This document shows positions 12,056 to 44,226 of a DNA stretch of 44,226 nucleotides, piece by piece (position 1 is the stretch's first letter; the number at the start of each line of letters is the position of its first letter). The stretch is from a virus, in IMG/VR virus record IMGVR_UViG_3300030329_005860, positions 6,463 through 50,688 of that record, one strand, 5' to 3'. The position numbers were made by a program, and so were the translations under genes. The notes beneath the pieces were generated by a model. That model saw nothing but the letters and a program-made list of their open reading frames with translations, was not told the origin of the DNA and made no database searches.

Positions 12056-12140
12056 TACCGAAGGCGGGACTCGAACCCGCAAGCCCACAAGGAGCGACAG
12101 ATTTTAAGTCTGTTGTGTATACCAATTCCACCACTTCGGC
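12056..12140 (-). tRNA. tRNA-Leu (anticodon UAA)
   Basis: Acceptor GCCGAAG/CTTCGGT with discriminator A, D-arm with GGTATACAC, anticodon loop ACTTAAAA giving UAA, a long variable arm (GTCGCTCCTTGTGGGCTT) and T-arm GCGGG-TTCGAGT-CCCGC. The terminal CCA is not encoded. Confidence 0.93.
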
Positions 12141-12148
12141 AGGAAGTG

Positions 12149-12221
12149 CTGCGTGAGCAGGGCTCGAACCTGCGACCGGGTGGTTAACAGCCACCTGCTC
12201 TACCAACTGAGCTATCACGCA
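12149..12221 (-). tRNA. tRNA-Asn (anticodon GUU)
   Basis: Acceptor TGCGTGA/TCACGCA with discriminator G, D-arm GCTC-AGTTGGTA-GAGC, anticodon loop CTGTTAA, T-arm GCAGG-TTCGAGC-CCTGC. U1 and G73 match bacterial tRNA-Asn. CCA not encoded. Confidence 0.93.
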
Positions 12222-12232
12222 TCTTTCTTGCA

Positions 12233-12865
12233 CTAAGTCACAATCTCGTCGATTAATCCATATTTTAAACAGGTCTTTGCATTCCACCAAAGATCATGCT
12301 TAAGCATTTTAGCTAGTTCCTTCTGCGGGATCTTAGTGTGCTTCGCATAAATGTCCTTAATCGTCTTCATTAAGAGATCGTTATTGGCCATGTCATCTTT
12401 AAGTTCCTCATACTTACCCCAGGATCCTGCTGATAACTGATGGATCAACATAAAAGCATGTTCGTTCATCATTCTATGTTCGCCAACAACACTCATCATC
12501 GTTGCGGCTGATGCCGCGCAACCATCAATTATTGTAGTTACAGGCACTTGGGACGTCCTAATATAATCAACAGCAGAAAACCCAGCAAAAACACTACCAC
12601 CATACGAATTGATATGAAGAAAGATGTCGCCCAATGCCGTTGACTGCAAAGAACATGCTTTATTCATCATGTTAATTTCTAAGTTTTTCAATGATTTATT
12701 CAATGTCAAGATCTTTGGTCTTGTAACCTCAGAATAAAAATAAATTCTATTATTTGCTGAAGTTACTTGATCCTTGTCGGAGCTTCTCGATGCCTCATCC
12801 GCACCAGTAACAGCCTGGGGCTGTTCATCAGAATCCACTTCAGATATCCAATTTGTTGAAATCAT
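12233..12865 (-). CDS. clpP: ClpP-family serine protease, paralogue 1 (210 aa)
   Basis: The Clp protease fold is clear: HINSYGGSVFAGFSAVDYI, the nucleophile S119 in GCAASAAT, the catalytic H142 in LIHQLSAG, and D191 in KHDLWWNAKTCLKYGLID, so the triad is complete. The first about 38 residues are an acidic, low-complexity extension absent from short ClpPs. I chose the ATG at 12865 with AAAAGGAG upstream; in-frame sequence further up is tRNA-Thr. The gene is sandwiched between tRNA-Asn and tRNA-Thr. A second ClpP (22894-23607) has a changed triad, so the two may form mixed rings. Head maturation and control of host Clp are both possible roles. Confidence 0.9.
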   Translation of the reverse strand: MISTNWISEVDSDEQPQAVTGADEASRSSDKDQVTSANNRIYFYSEVTRPKILTLNKSLKNLEINMMNKACSLQSTALGDIFLHINSYGGSVFAGFSAVDYIRTSQVPVTTIIDGCAASAATMMSVVGEHRMMNEHAFMLIHQLSAGSWGKYEELKDDMANNDLLMKTIKDIYAKHTKIPQKELAKMLKHDLWWNAKTCLKYGLIDEIVT

Positions 12866-12888
12866 TTTTCTCCTTTTAAATATTTCAA

Positions 12889-12961
12889 AGCTGATGATAG
12901 GACTCGAACCTACAACCTGCTGATTACAAATCAGCTGCTCTGCCAATTGAGCTACATCAGC
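12889..12961 (-). tRNA. tRNA-Thr (anticodon UGU)
   Basis: Acceptor GCTGATG/CATCAGC with discriminator T, D-arm GCTC-AATTGGCA-GAGC, anticodon stem GCTGA/TCAGC with loop TTTGTAA, T-arm GTAGG-TTCGAGT-CCTAT. CCA not encoded. Confidence 0.92.
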
Positions 12962-12965
12962 GGGC

Positions 12966-13041
12966 TGGTGGGCTCCCTGGGATTCGAACCCAGAACCTTC
13001 CGGTTATGAGCCGGGAGCACTAACCGTTGTGCTAGAAGCCC
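12966..13041 (-). tRNA. tRNA with CAU anticodon (elongator Met or Ile2)
   Basis: Acceptor GGGCTTC/GGAGCCC, D-arm GCAC-AACGGTTA-GTGC, anticodon loop CTCATAA, T-arm CTGGG-TTCGAAT-CCCAG, and an encoded ACCA end. The G1-C72 pair argues against initiator tRNA. Whether C34 is lysidinylated (Ile) cannot be read from the sequence. Confidence 0.88.
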
Positions 13042-13050
13042 GACTTTTTT

Positions 13051-13221
13051 TTAGTTATCAATTTTCTTAATAACTTTAGTGAGATCCTGAGCCACGGCTG
13101 CTTTAAAACGACCCAGCTCCTCTTTCAAGACATATACATCATCAACCATCTTGCTGAGACGGTTCGATACCTTATTTAATTGTTCCTGCAACTGTTTAGT
13201 TGTAACTCTCGTTTCTGCCAT
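13051..13221 (-). CDS. Small coiled-coil protein between tRNA genes (56 aa)
   Basis: It starts MAETRVTTKQLQEQLNKVSN and continues as one long amphipathic helix (RLSKMVDDVYVLKEELGRFK) with heptad spacing of hydrophobic residues, so a dimeric coiled coil is likely. GGAG lies upstream of the ATG. It is flanked by tRNA-Arg and the CAU tRNA and read on the same transcript. No family recognised. Confidence 0.6.
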   Translation of the reverse strand: MAETRVTTKQLQEQLNKVSNRLSKMVDDVYVLKEELGRFKAAVAQDLTKVIKKIDN

Positions 13222-13241
13222 TATTTTCTCCTTGTAGCTTA

Positions 13242-13318
13242 TGGCACATCCGACAGGATTCGAACCTGTGACCTACGGCTTAGAAGGCCGTTGCTCTATC
13301 CAGCTGAGCTACGGATGC
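13242..13318 (-). tRNA. tRNA-Arg (anticodon UCU)
   Basis: Acceptor GCATCCG/CGGATGT with discriminator G, D-arm GCTC-AGCTGGATA-GAGC, anticodon loop CTTCTAA with stem ACGGC/GCCGT, T-arm ACAGG-TTCGAAT-CCTGT, and an encoded CCA. UCU reads AGA/AGG, codons expected to be common in an AT-rich phage. Confidence 0.93.
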
Positions 13319-18385: not shown

Positions 18386-18692
18386 TTTCTCCTCCTACTT
18401 TTTGCTGTGTTGCTCCTAGACTCTCGATTTCTAACGCTAATGACGCGCGCTTCCAATCATCCAATATTGTCACAACATCTTCCAATTTGGAGTCGACAAT
18501 AAAAAGCTTTCTCCTGGTTTTGTCAATAGTCTCTTTAAATTTCAAATATTTATCACCGTGTAAATCTGTTCCTTCAAATTCAGGAACCATTTCAGATGAT
18601 AACAAGAGATTTTGCTTAACGTCGTACAGCAACTGCTTCGCCTTGTCTGGCACTTCATCAAGATCAACAGAATAGCTTATCTTAACCTTCAT
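18366..18692 (-). CDS. Conserved phage protein, MKVKISYSVDLDEVP type (108 aa)
   Basis: It opens MKVKISYSVDLDEVPDKAKQ, a beginning that recurs in small proteins of many marine phages, followed by a helical body (KFKETIDKTRRKLF, LEDVVTILDDWKRASLALE). Function unknown. The ATG at 18692 lies inside the last codons of groEL, with GGAG from the groEL C-terminal codons as its ribosome site, so it is coupled to groEL. Confidence 0.72.
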   Translation of the reverse strand: MKVKISYSVDLDEVPDKAKQLLYDVKQNLLLSSEMVPEFEGTDLHGDKYLKFKETIDKTRRKLFIVDSKLEDVVTILDDWKRASLALEIESLGATQQKVGGENVESSE

Positions 18693-20262
18693 TCGATGTC
18701 TCCACGATTGCATGGTTGGTTGTAATCAAGGTTGAAGAAACAGAGGTGGCATTTTGCAGGGCCGTTCTCGTTACTTTGGCAGGATCAATAATACCATTTT
18801 CATACATATCAACTACCTCGTTGGTCGCAAAGTTCCAACCATGTGTTTCTGGACTATCCAGTAGTCTATTTAAAATCAGGTCATATGATTCTCCAGCATT
18901 CTTTGACATTTGTTTTAAGGGACCATAAGCTGACTGCCTAATAACCTCAACACCAAGACGCTGATCATCGTTATCTGTTTCAACTTCTAGGTCTTGTACC
19001 GCTCGAATAAGGCTGGTACCTCCACCAGGGAGCGTGCCTTCCAGTTGGGCCGATCGGACGGCCTCCAAAGCATCTTCAATACGATGCTTCTTTTCAACCA
19101 TCTCAATTTCAGTTGGGGCCCCGACACGAATTACAGCAACGCCCGAAGAGAGTCTTGTAATCCGCTCTTGAAGTTTTTCGCACTCTGCTATACCATCTGT
19201 TTGTTTGATTTCAGACTTGAGGCTCTCAATTCTTTCATCAACCTTTGACCAGTCTGCTTTTCCATCTACGATTGTTGTCTGGTTCTTAAGCACTTCAATC
19301 TTCTTGGCGCTGCCCAGGTGCTTAAGTTTTACATCTGCTAACTTAAGCCCGGAATCTCTGCTAACGAAAGTTGCGCCTGTGGAAATACATAAATCTTCTA
19401 GAATACTTCTGCGTTCTTGACCATATCTTGGTGCTTTGATTGCTGCGACCTTCATTGTACCTCTGACTGTATTCATGATAAGCGCGGCGAGGGCTTGTCC
19501 TTCCAGTTCTTCAGACACAATCATAAACGGTCGACCTTCGCGGGCAACGACTTCAAGTATGGGCAAGATTTCCTCAAGCATTTCGATCTTATAATTTGTG
19601 ACCAATAAAAGGACGTCATCATAGTTGATAGATTGTTTTCGCTTGTTTGTTACAAAAGCCTGCGCACAATATCCAGCATCAAACCTAAATCCCTCAACAA
19701 TATCCAATGACGTCTTCATTGAGCGCCCTTCTTCAATTGATATAGCTCCGTCTTTTCCAATCTTATCAACAGCCATGGCAATCATCTCACCAATACTAGT
19801 ATCGCCATTGGCCGAAATTGTCGCAATGTGTCGAATATCTTCCTCTGATTTAATTGGTCTAGCTAGATTCTCTAACTTCGTTGTGATCGCCTCTGTGGCT
19901 TTGTCCATGCCCCTTTTAATGTCAATTGGACTAGCCCCTGCAGCGATGTACTTCTGTGCCTTAGAGAGCATTTCTCGGGCTAGTACGGTCGATGTCGTTG
20001 TGCCATCGCCTGCAGTGCTATTCGTATTAGATGCAGCTTGTTTAATGATCTGAGCGCCTAAGTTTTCAAACGGATCTTCCAGCTTGACGAATTTTGCAAC
20101 TGTTACACCATCTTTGGTGATCATCGGGCTGGCGCCTTCTTTGTGCAAGATAACGTTTCGTCCTTTAGGACCTAATGTTGAGGCAACGTTATCAGCCAGG
20201 ACGCTGGCGCCTCGGAGAATCTTTTCGCGTAAGTCTTTTCCTTGCGAATAGCTCTTAACCAT
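18682..20262 (-). CDS. groEL: Phage-encoded chaperonin GroEL (526 aa)
   Basis: A full-length group I chaperonin: VASTLGPKGRNVIL and KDGVTVAK near the N-terminus, the ATP-site motif AGDGTTTSTVLA, and the conserved intermediate-domain segments. It folds proteins in an ATP-driven ring; phage versions may fold capsid or replication proteins, with or without a cochaperonin. The length of 526 is close to the bacterial 547, but the glycine/methionine-rich C-terminal tail of bacterial GroEL is absent. A GroES-like gene is found 16 kb away (36184-36444), not next to it. The promoter is at 20289-20316. Confidence 0.96.
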   Translation of the reverse strand: MVKSYSQGKDLREKILRGASVLADNVASTLGPKGRNVILHKEGASPMITKDGVTVAKFVKLEDPFENLGAQIIKQAASNTNSTAGDGTTTSTVLAREMLSKAQKYIAAGASPIDIKRGMDKATEAITTKLENLARPIKSEEDIRHIATISANGDTSIGEMIAMAVDKIGKDGAISIEEGRSMKTSLDIVEGFRFDAGYCAQAFVTNKRKQSINYDDVLLLVTNYKIEMLEEILPILEVVAREGRPFMIVSEELEGQALAALIMNTVRGTMKVAAIKAPRYGQERRSILEDLCISTGATFVSRDSGLKLADVKLKHLGSAKKIEVLKNQTTIVDGKADWSKVDERIESLKSEIKQTDGIAECEKLQERITRLSSGVAVIRVGAPTEIEMVEKKHRIEDALEAVRSAQLEGTLPGGGTSLIRAVQDLEVETDNDDQRLGVEVIRQSAYGPLKQMSKNAGESYDLILNRLLDSPETHGWNFATNEVVDMYENGIIDPAKVTRTALQNATSVSSTLITTNHAIVETSNEG

Positions 20263-24003: not shown

Positions 24004-24037
24004 AAAAAACCCGCTATAAATATAGCGGGTTTTTTTG
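24004..24037. terminator. Strong intrinsic terminator, likely bidirectional
   Basis: A 10-bp perfect stem ACCCGCTATA/TATAGCGGGT with a 2-nt loop is flanked by A and T runs on both sides. It ends the transcript of the scaffold-like gene. Confidence 0.85.
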
Positions 24038-41159: not shown

Positions 41160-42260
41160 TTATGTGGAAGAAGATTGTTCTGTCTTTCTTTCATATTTCA
41201 AAACAATCTCTTCGTGCATCAATTCTAGCACCCTTTCACGGAACTGTTCACTACTTTTTAATTTTTCAATCCAATTTTTTGACTGAAATTTTTGTGATGT
41301 GCCGTCTTCGAAATGCAACGTGTACCAAGCACCGGCCTGTGTCAAGTTCTCTGAACCAATCAGAGCTTCTAACCAACTCTCTTCGTTTCGGATGCCTACG
41401 TCGCCGGCGAACATAATTTTAAAATGACATTTGCGACCAGAAGTGCCAAAACGAGACTTTTCAAGCTTGACTTGTACCTGGTATCCTACGCGGTCATCGC
41501 CATCCATAATGAATGAAGATTTAGCTTTTCGGCCAGTTAACCAAATACGCAGCGAATACGCATAGTGCATAGCTTTCCCGCCCGGAGTGACATATGGTGT
41601 TGTCATAATCTCCATTCTTTGTGCAGGATTTGAGGCGATATTTGTTTTAAGCTGATTCAGTACTAGAAACGTCGATTGTGTGTTGGCAATAGGAACAGTC
41701 AATTTAGACATCCCCTTAGCAAGAATCCTAGCCTTAACGGCCATTGAAGATTGTGGATTGAAATCTCCCTCCACATCTGTTATTGCTGGAGTTAGTGCCA
41801 GCGAGTCCCATATAAACAACATCTGACTATCGTTCGAACCTAATAGTTCTTCAATTGTCTCTAAAACAAATTCTACGCTTGATGCTTGCACATAAAGGAA
41901 TCTTTCCAAGTCAATACCTAATTTAGACAACAGGCTTGGATCAATAGCGGATTCTGAATCGAAATAAACAACATCAATACCCATCTTCTGTGCATTCGCT
42001 GCTACCTCTGCTGCCATCCACGATTTACCTGCGCCTTCGAGGCCGGCAATCTCTGTAATTTTACCTACTGGGATCCCAGCCTTTTTGCCTCTGCAAATAA
42101 TATTATCTAGCCAGGTCGAGCCAGTTGATATCCATTGTTTGACTTCAGTTGGATTGTCCTCTCTCAAGTCATGAGCAACCTCAAGGCCGGCCTTTCTATT
42201 AATTAAATTACGCATGTCATCCATGCTAAGTTTTCCTAATTTTTTAGCTTTCCTTGCCAT
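41160..42260 (-). CDS. uvsX: RecA/UvsX recombinase (366 aa)
   Basis: Strand-exchange protein with Walker A GLEGAGKS (73-80), Walker B LFIWDSLALTPA and the DNA-binding loop region around STFLVLNQLKTNIAS and TTPYVTPGGKAMHYAYSLRI. The overall layout is that of the T4 UvsX branch. It forms filaments on single-stranded DNA for repair and recombination-driven replication. Downstream lies an intrinsic terminator; upstream lies the FKBP gene. Confidence 0.93.
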   Translation of the reverse strand: MARKAKKLGKLSMDDMRNLINRKAGLEVAHDLREDNPTEVKQWISTGSTWLDNIICRGKKAGIPVGKITEIAGLEGAGKSWMAAEVAANAQKMGIDVVYFDSESAIDPSLLSKLGIDLERFLYVQASSVEFVLETIEELLGSNDSQMLFIWDSLALTPAITDVEGDFNPQSSMAVKARILAKGMSKLTVPIANTQSTFLVLNQLKTNIASNPAQRMEIMTTPYVTPGGKAMHYAYSLRIWLTGRKAKSSFIMDGDDRVGYQVQVKLEKSRFGTSGRKCHFKIMFAGDVGIRNEESWLEALIGSENLTQAGAWYTLHFEDGTSQKFQSKNWIEKLKSSEQFRERVLELMHEEIVLKYERKTEQSSST

Positions 42261-42283: not shown

Positions 42284-42718
42284 TTATTCATTGCAGTCAA
42301 TAATTTCAATTTCAAAAGTCAATGCTTCGCCGGCCAGTGGATGATTGTGGTCTAGTACAACTGAGTCTGCAGACTCAGAAATAATTTTTGCAACCAAAGG
42401 CTGGCCAGCGGATGTCTGACCTTGGACAGTGCTGCCGATCTCAAAGTTAAATCCACTTGGAAATAGCGTTTTTGATGTCTCCTGAATCGCGTCTGGATTA
42501 ACCTCGCCGTAAGCATCAGAGGGGGACAAGGTGAAAGTCTTTACCTCGCCAAGTCCCATTCCATGTACTGCAGTATCGAAACCTTTAATGACTTGTCCAG
42601 AGCCCACTTCAAATTCCAGGGGGACTCCTCTTATGTGAGAATTATCAAATTCTGTCCCGTCATTTAATGTGCCTTTATAATGGACCTTCACATTGTGTCC
42701 CTCTTTAATTAAACTCAT
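42284..42718 (-). CDS. FKBP-type peptidyl-prolyl isomerase, SlyD-like (144 aa)
   Basis: The FKBP core begins VKVHYKGTLNDGTEFDNS and includes FEVGSGQVIKGFDTAVHGMG. An insert (IQETSKTLFPSGFNFEIGST) corresponds to the IF chaperone domain, and the end DHNHPLAGEALTFEIEI is the SlyD/FkpB signature. It speeds proline isomerisation and assists folding. The His-rich metal-binding tail of SlyD is absent. Its mRNA leader holds one of two copies of a conserved RNA element (42742-42793). Confidence 0.93.
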   Translation of the reverse strand: MSLIKEGHNVKVHYKGTLNDGTEFDNSHIRGVPLEFEVGSGQVIKGFDTAVHGMGLGEVKTFTLSPSDAYGEVNPDAIQETSKTLFPSGFNFEIGSTVQGQTSAGQPLVAKIISESADSVVLDHNHPLAGEALTFEIEIIDCNE

Positions 42719-42741
42719 GTTTTTTTCCTTATATTTGTGAG

Positions 42742-42793
42742 TTGAGGCACCTGTAAACCCGTGCCTGCCCTGCGGTGCGGCATTTAAGCTGCC
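42742..42793 (-). ncRNA. Repeated RNA element, copy A (FKBP leader)
   Basis: The core 42742-42776 is 33/35 identical to copy B at 44150-44183. The RNA has ACCGCAGGG, then a 6-bp hairpin AGGCAC/GTGCCT with a loop containing GGGTTT. Upstream a small hairpin GGCA/TGCC (42790-42793 with 42779-42782) holds the stop codon TAA of the 433-aa gene in its loop. The loop GGGU can pair with the upstream ACC as a pseudoknot. Candidate leader regulator. Confidence 0.6.
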
Positions 42794-44085
42794 TTTGCTT
42801 TAAGAGAAGTATTGATTCTATTCTTCCACTTGTTATCCCTCATTCCTTTGAAAATTAAGTTTGAGAGCAAGCTCCACTTGGTGTGTTGATTAACAAAATC
42901 AGACTTTCTCGATTTGCTCGAATTTGCAAAAGACGCTATAAAATCTCTATTAACTTCATCGAGCAGCCTTTTGCCGTATTCAGACCAGATTGCTTTTGCG
43001 GACGCGATAGAGTGTTTTTGATCATATTCTTGTCTCTTTTCATCCCATTCATAACAGTTGCTAACAACTGCGTATACGAACATCAAAATATAGTCTTTGT
43101 TAAGGGCGCCGATGGCTTCCTGGCCATTGAATAAATTTGTTCTAAAAAAACTTCTTTTGCTTGGCTGTTTAAGAAGCTGGCTGGCACCAGATTGTTTAAT
43201 TAATGGGAATTCATTAAAATCACTGCCCAAAATATTCTCCATAGTGCTCTGAATATAATCAGACAGCTCTAAAACATAATCCACATGTTTTTGTGTGGGA
43301 AGAGTATACGGCTTATATTTGTCGTTTATTAACATGTTGATCGCTGTTGTCTCTCCAGCTTTGGGAAGCTTTGCGATATCAGGAACACCAAGACCTGTTT
43401 CATAAGTTAGAGGGAAAAAGGTAGATAAAAGTCTGATGACTTGTTGCACCTCATTCGCAGCAGTTATTTTCTCGCCCTTGGCATTTTTCTGATACTGCTT
43501 CCATCCAATATTTTTAATGTCAGTATATTTGATATTGCTTTTCAGATCATCAAAAAGCCCTAGCATATTTTCTTCGCTAGACTGTTTTTGATTGGTTCTG
43601 TTATTCCAAGCTTTAGCAGCTCCACGCTGGTCGGCAATGGTTGGAAACACGCTCCTTTCCACAAGAGTCAGCTTAACAATCTCATTAACATTTGGATTTT
43701 CTTGAAGACCCGTAGTTATCGCATACCCACTATGTTGGCCATCGTAATGACCAGATCGGCCTTCTGAAAGCGGGCGGGGTGGATTATGGCCCCAGTCGCA
43801 AGTGAAAGTGATACAACTATTATCTGAATCAAATTCAAAAGAGCCGTTGTCTATAGTAATTTGCATCCCGCCGCACTTGGTTAAAAACGAACCGTCATTT
43901 TTCAATAAACTGGCCTTAATATTTTTAACTTTTTCAGAATCCGGGTTCAAGTCCCGAGGATTCATACCTTTTGGTATTTGGTTCAATCCGTGCTCCAAAG
44001 ACGGTATTGCATACACGTCATATACTCCATTCCCGTTTGTTAAGAATGACTGCCCTGGCGGCAGATTTAATTTAATTTTTTTCAT
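42784..44085 (-). CDS. AIPR/DGQHR-like protein (433 aa)
   Basis: The segment SEGRSGHYDGQHSGYAITTG followed by VNEIVKLTLVERSVFPTIAD and GAAKAWNNRTNQKQSS resembles AIPR (abortive infection) and DGQHR-type proteins, which share a DG(G/Q)H motif and an AxN(N/R) segment. The rest is helical, with FFPLTYETGLGVPDI and a basic C-terminus. The family match is by eye and moderate. AIPR-type proteins are mostly known from phage resistance; a phage copy might be a decoy, an anti-defence factor or unrelated. GAGGAG precedes the ATG; RNA element copy B lies in its leader. Confidence 0.7.
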   Translation of the reverse strand: MKKIKLNLPPGQSFLTNGNGVYDVYAIPSLEHGLNQIPKGMNPRDLNPDSEKVKNIKASLLKNDGSFLTKCGGMQITIDNGSFEFDSDNSCITFTCDWGHNPPRPLSEGRSGHYDGQHSGYAITTGLQENPNVNEIVKLTLVERSVFPTIADQRGAAKAWNNRTNQKQSSEENMLGLFDDLKSNIKYTDIKNIGWKQYQKNAKGEKITAANEVQQVIRLLSTFFPLTYETGLGVPDIAKLPKAGETTAINMLINDKYKPYTLPTQKHVDYVLELSDYIQSTMENILGSDFNEFPLIKQSGASQLLKQPSKRSFFRTNLFNGQEAIGALNKDYILMFVYAVVSNCYEWDEKRQEYDQKHSIASAKAIWSEYGKRLLDEVNRDFIASFANSSKSRKSDFVNQHTKWSLLSNLIFKGMRDNKWKNRINTSLKAKAA

Positions 44086-44149
44086 TTTATTCTCCTCATA
44101 GTTAGGGGATATTTTGGTTATTGTACAACCGTCATCCCATTAATGAAAA

Positions 44150-44202
44150 TTGAGGCACCTGTAACCCGTGCCTACCCTGCGGTTCTTGGAATTAACCAAG
44201 GA
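44150..44202 (-). ncRNA. Repeated RNA element, copy B (433-aa gene leader)
   Basis: The core 44150-44183 matches copy A. The upstream hairpin CTTGG/CCAAG (44196-44200 with 44185-44189) differs in sequence from copy A but keeps its pairing, and again holds a TAA stop codon in its loop. AACC just after it can pair with GGUU in the loop of the main hairpin AGGCAC/GTGCCT. Confidence 0.6.
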
Positions 44203-44226
44203 ATTCTGAAAAAGCCTGATCAACAG
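44192..44226 (-). CDS. C-terminal end of an upstream gene (partial)
   Basis: One frame stays open from the window edge and ends VDQAFSEFLG with TAA at 44192-44194, inside the hairpin loop of RNA element B. The parallel with copy A, whose loop holds the stop of a real gene, supports this as the end of a gene outside the window. Confidence 0.4.
   Translation of the reverse strand, partial: VDQAFSEFLG

Follow-up and report, generated by a model that had tools for sequence, protein, structure and literature searches.

A covarying H-type pseudoknot RNA family, absent from Rfam 15, between the ssb and uvsX genes of uncultivated viruses

Two copies of a small RNA element, here termed P, precede consecutive genes of an ssb-uvsX operon in an IMG/VR virus record, and they belong to an undescribed, strongly covarying RNA family of ∼35 nt that is absent from Rfam 15. 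P is a compact H-type pseudoknot, in which a hairpin loop pairs with a preceding NCC, a pairing backed by covariation. The window, the whole stretch of DNA that was analyzed, takes up the right-hand 44,226 bp of an IMG/VR virus record of 50,688 bp; elsewhere it encodes a phage GroEL chaperonin (18682-20262; PHROG 5725). The genes around the finding all run leftward, and the copies of P are therefore read on the minus strand. The duplication of the core reported in the original prediction was found again on that strand: copy 1, ACCGCAGGGCAGGCACGGGTTTACAGGTGCCTCAA (42776-42742), and copy 2, ACCGCAGGGTAGGCACGGGTTACAGGTGCCTCAA (44183-44150), differ by one substitution and one indel, and shuffles of the window gave an expectation of zero chance matches to the core pattern. 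A covariance model scored P1 at 54.6 bits (E value, 8e-12) and P2 at 56.5 bits (E value, 3e-12), and detected no third significant copy in the whole 50,688-bp record. The copies do precede consecutive genes for a 433-aa protein and an FKBP, as first described, and UvsX/RecA comes next. The features, from upstream to downstream in the operon, are as follows.

44192 to 44226, minus strand: 3' end of ssb (gp32-type ssDNA-binding protein), cut by the record end; C terminus DQAFSEFLG, then stop.
44194 to 44192, minus strand: ssb stop codon, 9 nt before the CC of P2.
44152 to 44183, minus strand: pseudoknot P2, between the ssb 3' end and the 433-aa gene (covariance model, covariation).
Stem S1 of P2: 44183-44181 with 44166-44164; contact G44180.G44167.
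Stem S2 of P2: 44173-44168 with 44158-44153, plus G44175-C44152.
42784 to 44085, minus strand: open reading frame, 433-aa gene, function not assigned.
42744 to 42776, minus strand: pseudoknot P1, between the 433-aa gene and the FKBP gene (covariance model, covariation).
Stem S1 of P1: 42776-42774 with 42759-42757; contact G42773.G42760.
Stem S2 of P1: 42766-42761 with 42750-42745, plus G42768-C42744 across a one-base bulge.
Loops of P1: L1, CAGG; L3, TTACAG.
42743 to 44151, minus strand: cassette of the 433-aa gene plus P1, 1.4 kb, precisely missing from the close relative L013.
42719 to 42743, minus strand: P1-FKBP leader, AACTCACAAATATAAGGAAAAAAAC; AU-rich, G-poor, containing the ribosome-binding site.
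42284 to 42718, minus strand: FKBP-type peptidyl-prolyl isomerase gene, downstream of P1 (PF00254; E value, 7e-23).
41160 to 42260, minus strand: UvsX/RecA-like recombinase gene, next in the operon after FKBP (PF00154; E value, 4e-37).

Reading leftward from the window end, the first 77 nt match the end of ssb in L013 at every position, and SSB homologues in related loci match gp32 (PF08804; E value, 1.8e-12) and PHROG 1192. The 433-aa protein gave no Pfam or PHROG match.

P is built from a 7-bp stem (S2) and a 3-bp stem (S1), with a G.G/A.A contact whose two positions change together and with loop letters that hardly vary. In the numbering of alignment A1, S2 comprises pairs 18-42 and 20-41 to 25-36, and S1 comprises pairs 10-29, 11-28, and 12-27; P1 and P2 both have one additional base between L1 and S2, a rare form in the family. 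The cells of A1 were paired in 99.0% of cases, versus 87.8% in shuffles and at most 58% in slid controls, and compensatory changes in the proposed helices exceeded these controls for covariation. The predicted pairing of the loop with the preceding ACC is borne out by 255 distinct elements, where pair 10-29 shows all four Watson-Crick types (A-U 110, C-G 94, U-G 16, G-C 10, U-A 8, other 17). Pair 18-42 is G-C in 213 of them and A-U in 28, and position 13/26 is G.G in 223, A.A in 31, and something else in 1. An APC-corrected covariation scan of 1081 column pairs placed 10-29 first, followed by 25-36, 20-41, 18-42, 13-26, and 24-37, so that the top six are all proposed pairs. Because both sides of the stems and of the pseudoknot show compensatory changes, selection acts on RNA pairing and not on DNA letters. 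The folding energies of the two window copies, taken as single sequences, were uninformative, with z scores of 0.19 and -1.12.

Next in the scan came 13-32 and 26-32, which suggests that the purine-purine contact 13.26 extends S1 and touches L3, G.G going with A32 and A.A with U32; since the A.A type has one additional L3 base, any contact with position 32 hinges on how the sequences are aligned. The two types coexist within single loci (29 loci, among loci fetched with G.G-type patterns). Almost no variation occurs in L1 (CAGG) or in the last letters of L3 (ANAG). An origin of this loop conservation in the search itself was considered and rejected, as it persists in scans that left L1 or the loop free. 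L3 can hold an additional hairpin; seven loci (L016, L039, L040, L027, L086, L192, and L314) carry a hairpin or a long insert there and retain the ANAG/ACAG end.

A first pattern scan of IMG/VR returned at least 120 stretches, of which all but a handful have the paired stem and nearly all lie past a stop codon and ahead of the ribosome-binding site that serves the next gene. The set grew to at least about 250 loci, with one to four copies per locus, through two scans in which one part of the motif was unconstrained and a search with the SSB protein; gene calls in these loci are mechanical, and the loci are not independent of each other. Records carry one to three copies, even at 170 to 190 kb, and P was on this count rejected as a genome-wide dispersed repeat. 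Rfam 15 covariance models at the gathering score, run on the window and eight related loci, found only tRNAs, those in the window, where five tRNA genes cluster at 12056-13318; with E values up to 10, there was no match on P1 or P2. Further copies with compensatory changes in IMG/VR, the check originally proposed, together with the lack of an Rfam match, substantiate the claim of a genuine cis-acting structured RNA of a type not previously recognized.

The family is nearly confined to uncultivated viral contigs. The core found no match by blastn among 50,697 isolate phage records, and two pattern scans of prokaryote genomes gave zero matches and one match, the latter on a phage-like contig within a Flavobacteriales MAG. 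The closest cultured SSB relatives, from Flavobacterium phage immuto and Microcystis phage Mel-JY01 (31 to 34% identity), come from genomes in which P is absent and the recombinase gene follows ssb by 2 to 8 nt. Many of the IMG/VR sample numbers resemble those of seawater samples, and the host viruses are presumably marine phages. Our literature search found no paper on a pseudoknot adjoining uvsX.

P holds a narrowly defined place between genes. Among 198 loci, the SSB gene lies within the fetched stretch in 180 and the UvsX gene in 169; in loci with either gene, all 277 elements are on the sense strand, and ssb and uvsX enclose 231 of them. Where both genes are present (161 loci), they flank nearly all copies, every one on the sense strand, and the first copy usually starts 6 to 16 nt past the ssb stop. 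Taking all copies together, the gap from stop codon to P has quartiles of 8, 10, and 12 nt, and that from P to the next start 22, 25, and 29 nt; a strong Shine-Dalgarno match was found at 241 of 282 downstream starts, which were partly picked for that feature. P is followed by ∼13 nt of AU-rich, G-poor RNA (4% G) and then by the Shine-Dalgarno sequence. T makes up 47 to 73% of the letters at positions +3 to +7 behind the stem (70 to 73% at +4 and +5), and runs of at least five T's occur in 25% of copies, versus 5% in shuffles; this U-rich patch is anchored to P, not to the start codon.

Some copies have no ssb nearby and lie near genes which, named by sequence inspection, are ClpP-like, thymidine-kinase-like, or tRNA genes. 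Two copies lie immediately upstream of tRNA genes (L187 and L314), and in L094 what comes after the element is a U run and a promoter-like sequence, without any ORF. The L314 copy lies between a nucleotidyltransferase-like gene and tRNA-Thr, in a phage region (G003:149500-155000) with three tRNA genes and a tmRNA gene. L226 has three pseudoknot copies upstream of ssb (927-1786) and a terminator-like hairpin behind it.

Relatives (e.g., L010, L001, L014, and L048) also have another conserved RNA element, distinct from P, shortly upstream of the ssb start. It consists of an ∼8-bp hairpin with a variable stem and a loop of about [GA]AnATTnG, then ACTnTA. Of 199 distinct ssb leaders, 149 contain it; the window record stops short of this region. 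Rfam gave no match to it in the loci carrying it, and this hairpin may be the real ssb operator.

The slot behind ssb can be filled in other ways. The best 80 SSB relatives were gathered without using P, and the slot was classed in 79 of them: P occupies it in 46 and a terminator-like GC hairpin with a U run in 20 (labeled by eye in three of the 20, L226, L246, and L257), as in L251 (GGGGGGCUUCGGCCCCCC-UUUUUUUU). A long hairpin was found in 3, a zero gap in 8, where the next gene abuts ssb and P comes later, and other arrangements in 2. The state, P or terminator, switched at least five times on the SSB tree. On a d'Aubenton-Carafa-type score, in our own re-implementation, P has a median of -58, with only 2 of 276 copies above 0, the threshold for a canonical intrinsic terminator, while the hairpins that replace it score +24. 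L247, L248, and L268 have, immediately behind ssb, a long hairpin with a 30- to 50-nt loop. In L212, a canonical terminator, AAGAGGACC-ATTAATTT-GGTCCTCTTTTTT (minus strand, 3145-3100), follows the pseudoknot at ∼10 nt or less, an arrangement that resembles an aptamer with its expression platform. In the window itself, the only strong canonical intrinsic terminator found, a bidirectional one, lies at 24010-24029 (CCCGCTATAAATATAGCGGG, with T runs on both sides).

Copies of P also come and go together with genes. The order in L013 is ssb-P-FKBP, compared with ssb-P2-433-aa gene-P1-FKBP in the window, so that L013 represents the empty-site allele. Over 77 nt on the left, L013 matches the flank of P2 at 100% identity, and over 376 nt on the right it matches that of P1 at 95%; the element between them is a hybrid, with a P2-like 5' part and a P1-like 3' flank, and the 1.4-kb unit was therefore gained or lost by a crossover inside P. 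The same presence or absence of a gene with its P was seen in 152 locus pairs, many of them redundant, with units of about 0.2 to 1.9 kb. Copies within a genome agree in 5.2 of nine features and copies from different genomes in 4.7, a slight difference.

Since terminators replace P, and genes come and go with a copy, P looks like a control signal of a new kind that separates genes; since two copies precede tRNA genes and the L094 copy has no ORF behind it, we view it as a 3' element, not as a leader. An even chance seems right for the proposal that P is an intercistronic punctuation RNA acting on the 3' side of the preceding gene, either as a weak or conditional terminator or as a 3'-end block; its effects on transcript ends and levels are here deduced from comparison of sequences. 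The RNA just past the terminating ribosome of the upstream cistron would fold into the H-type pseudoknot, followed by the U-rich patch. A fraction of RNA polymerases might then stop at P, as at a weak or conditional terminator or an attenuator, or P might give a processed transcript 3' end that resists 3'→5' exonucleases. The expected outcome would be abundant SSB mRNA and stepwise less mRNA for the accessory genes, FKBP, and UvsX behind it, each newly added gene bringing its own P as a cassette. In T4, ∼30% of transcripts end at a weak terminator within mobE, for which a role in tuning nrdA/nrdB has been proposed (PMC2988022). Two observations count against punctuation: P lies far below the canonical terminator score, and a canonical terminator stands behind the L212 copy, as though P by itself did not terminate. 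A third is that the nearly invariant CAGG and ANAG and the conserved tertiary contact go beyond what simple termination or exonuclease blocking needs, so a more specific reader of the fold would be required.

Such a reader, which could perhaps set the strength of P, might be a small ligand, a phage protein, or RNA polymerase. We put forward, tentatively, a gated 3'-end signal of a new class: a minimal pseudoknot whose coupled purine-purine contact one of these three would recognize, which would control transcription stop or the survival of mRNA 3' ends one gene at a time, and which would travel as the standard end piece of phage gene cassettes.

Placed beside a gp32-family SSB gene, P might alternatively serve as a gp32-like operator of translation: SSB, or a different protein encoded in the operon, would nucleate on P, spread over the AU-rich leader onto the ribosome-binding site, and, at excess SSB, repress the genes that follow. 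Autogenous repression by T4 gp32 works via an H-type pseudoknot and an unstructured A+U-rich leader (PMC3014915), and the AU-rich RNA and Shine-Dalgarno sequence behind P would fit such a scheme. However, P stands behind ssb and not before it, with L226 as the sole exception among loci with an SSB match, and the ssb leader is occupied by a different conserved hairpin. P is also found upstream of tRNA genes and in loci without a nearby ssb, and a plain terminator fills its slot in relatives; we consider an operator of this kind unlikely. The same tRNA-adjacent copies and plain terminators rule out translation coupling of the downstream gene, one of the roles initially suggested, as the general role of P.

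It is also rather doubtful that P is a small riboswitch or ligand-gated attenuator, in which a host metabolite would bind between the stems and set how often transcription stops or translation starts. Its size, H-type topology, and nearly invariant unpaired letters with variable stems recall minimal aptamers; the G.G/A.A contact lies where the stems join, L3 accommodates inserted hairpins, and a terminator stands behind P in L212. Yet riboswitches are not usually placed so close behind a stop codon or found several times in one operon, the neighboring genes suggest no sensing logic, no Rfam riboswitch matched, and a plain terminator can take the place of P.

Conservation of P mainly as a DNA junction, for the swapping of cassettes by homologous or site-specific recombination, is improbable. 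The exact presence or absence of gene plus P, with the crossover inside P between the window and L013 and the same pattern in 152 more locus pairs, in a region that is a hotspot of accessory genes, is what such a junction would leave. But the compensatory changes in stems and pseudoknot reflect selection on RNA pairing, all copies share the sense orientation and keep narrow spacings to the stop and start codons, and copies within a genome are barely more alike than those between genomes. Recombination at P is probably a by-product.

Stop codon readthrough, which had been suggested at the outset, or reinitiation is very improbable: P does start 8 to 12 nt past the stop, about where an RNA barrier meets a terminating ribosome, but readthrough is not supported, because the frame from stop to P is random (gap modulo 3, 100/81/74) and each of the three stop codons occurs (TAA 160, TAG 79, TGA 16), and the hairpin that spans the stop is not conserved. 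That hairpin, with the upstream stop codon in its loop, is indeed visible at both window copies. Across 219 relatives it is not conserved: stems of 4 bp or more enclose the stop in 40%, versus 31% after shuffling of the spacer, and those of 5 bp or more in 21%, versus 11%, which amounts to a weak tendency at best.

The natural swaps of pseudoknot and terminator at one site offer a direct comparative handle on how phages set their SSB:recombinase ratio, and the family also gives one on how a core operon takes up accessory genes while its expression stays intact. At only ∼35 nt, P is well suited to structure work.

The preQ1-I and SAM-II riboswitches are minimal H-type pseudoknots of about 35 to 50 nt with conserved loop letters. 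P shares the minimal H-type fold and the conserved loop letters with them; it differs in having no Rfam match, in the letters that are conserved, and in its intercistronic position behind stop codons. Intrinsic (Rho-independent) terminators, including the weak one in T4 mobE, resemble P in being interchangeable with it behind ssb and in combining a hairpin with a U-rich patch. In P, however, the stem is short, the conserved loop of 9 to 10 nt forms a second stem, the U patch begins about 3 nt after the stem, and the score is far under threshold. The gene 32 pseudoknot of T4, T2, and RB69 is likewise of the H type, lies by an AU-rich stretch, and is tied to a gp32-family SSB gene; the T4 operator, however, lies ∼67 nt upstream of gene 32 itself (PMC3014915), whereas P lies downstream of ssb, with copies before ssb only in L226.

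The closest known system is the PeSL cassettes of T4-like phages, which are described, in the account given in PMC4503421 (citing Arbiol 2010 and Comeau 2014), as composite promoter-terminator motifs that mediate modular shuffling. As portrayed there, a PeSL is like P an intergenic RNA stem-loop that punctuates genes, at boundaries where related phages shuffle them, and P does lie at such boundaries, both between the window and L013 and in the 152 locus pairs. The adjacent early promoter of a PeSL has no counterpart in the base frequencies of the gap between P and the next start, typically 22 to 29 nt, where no -10-like peak was seen. Set against PeSLs so described, P lacks a conserved promoter and scores below canonical terminators; it is a covarying pseudoknot with conserved loops, concentrated in the ssb-uvsX operon.
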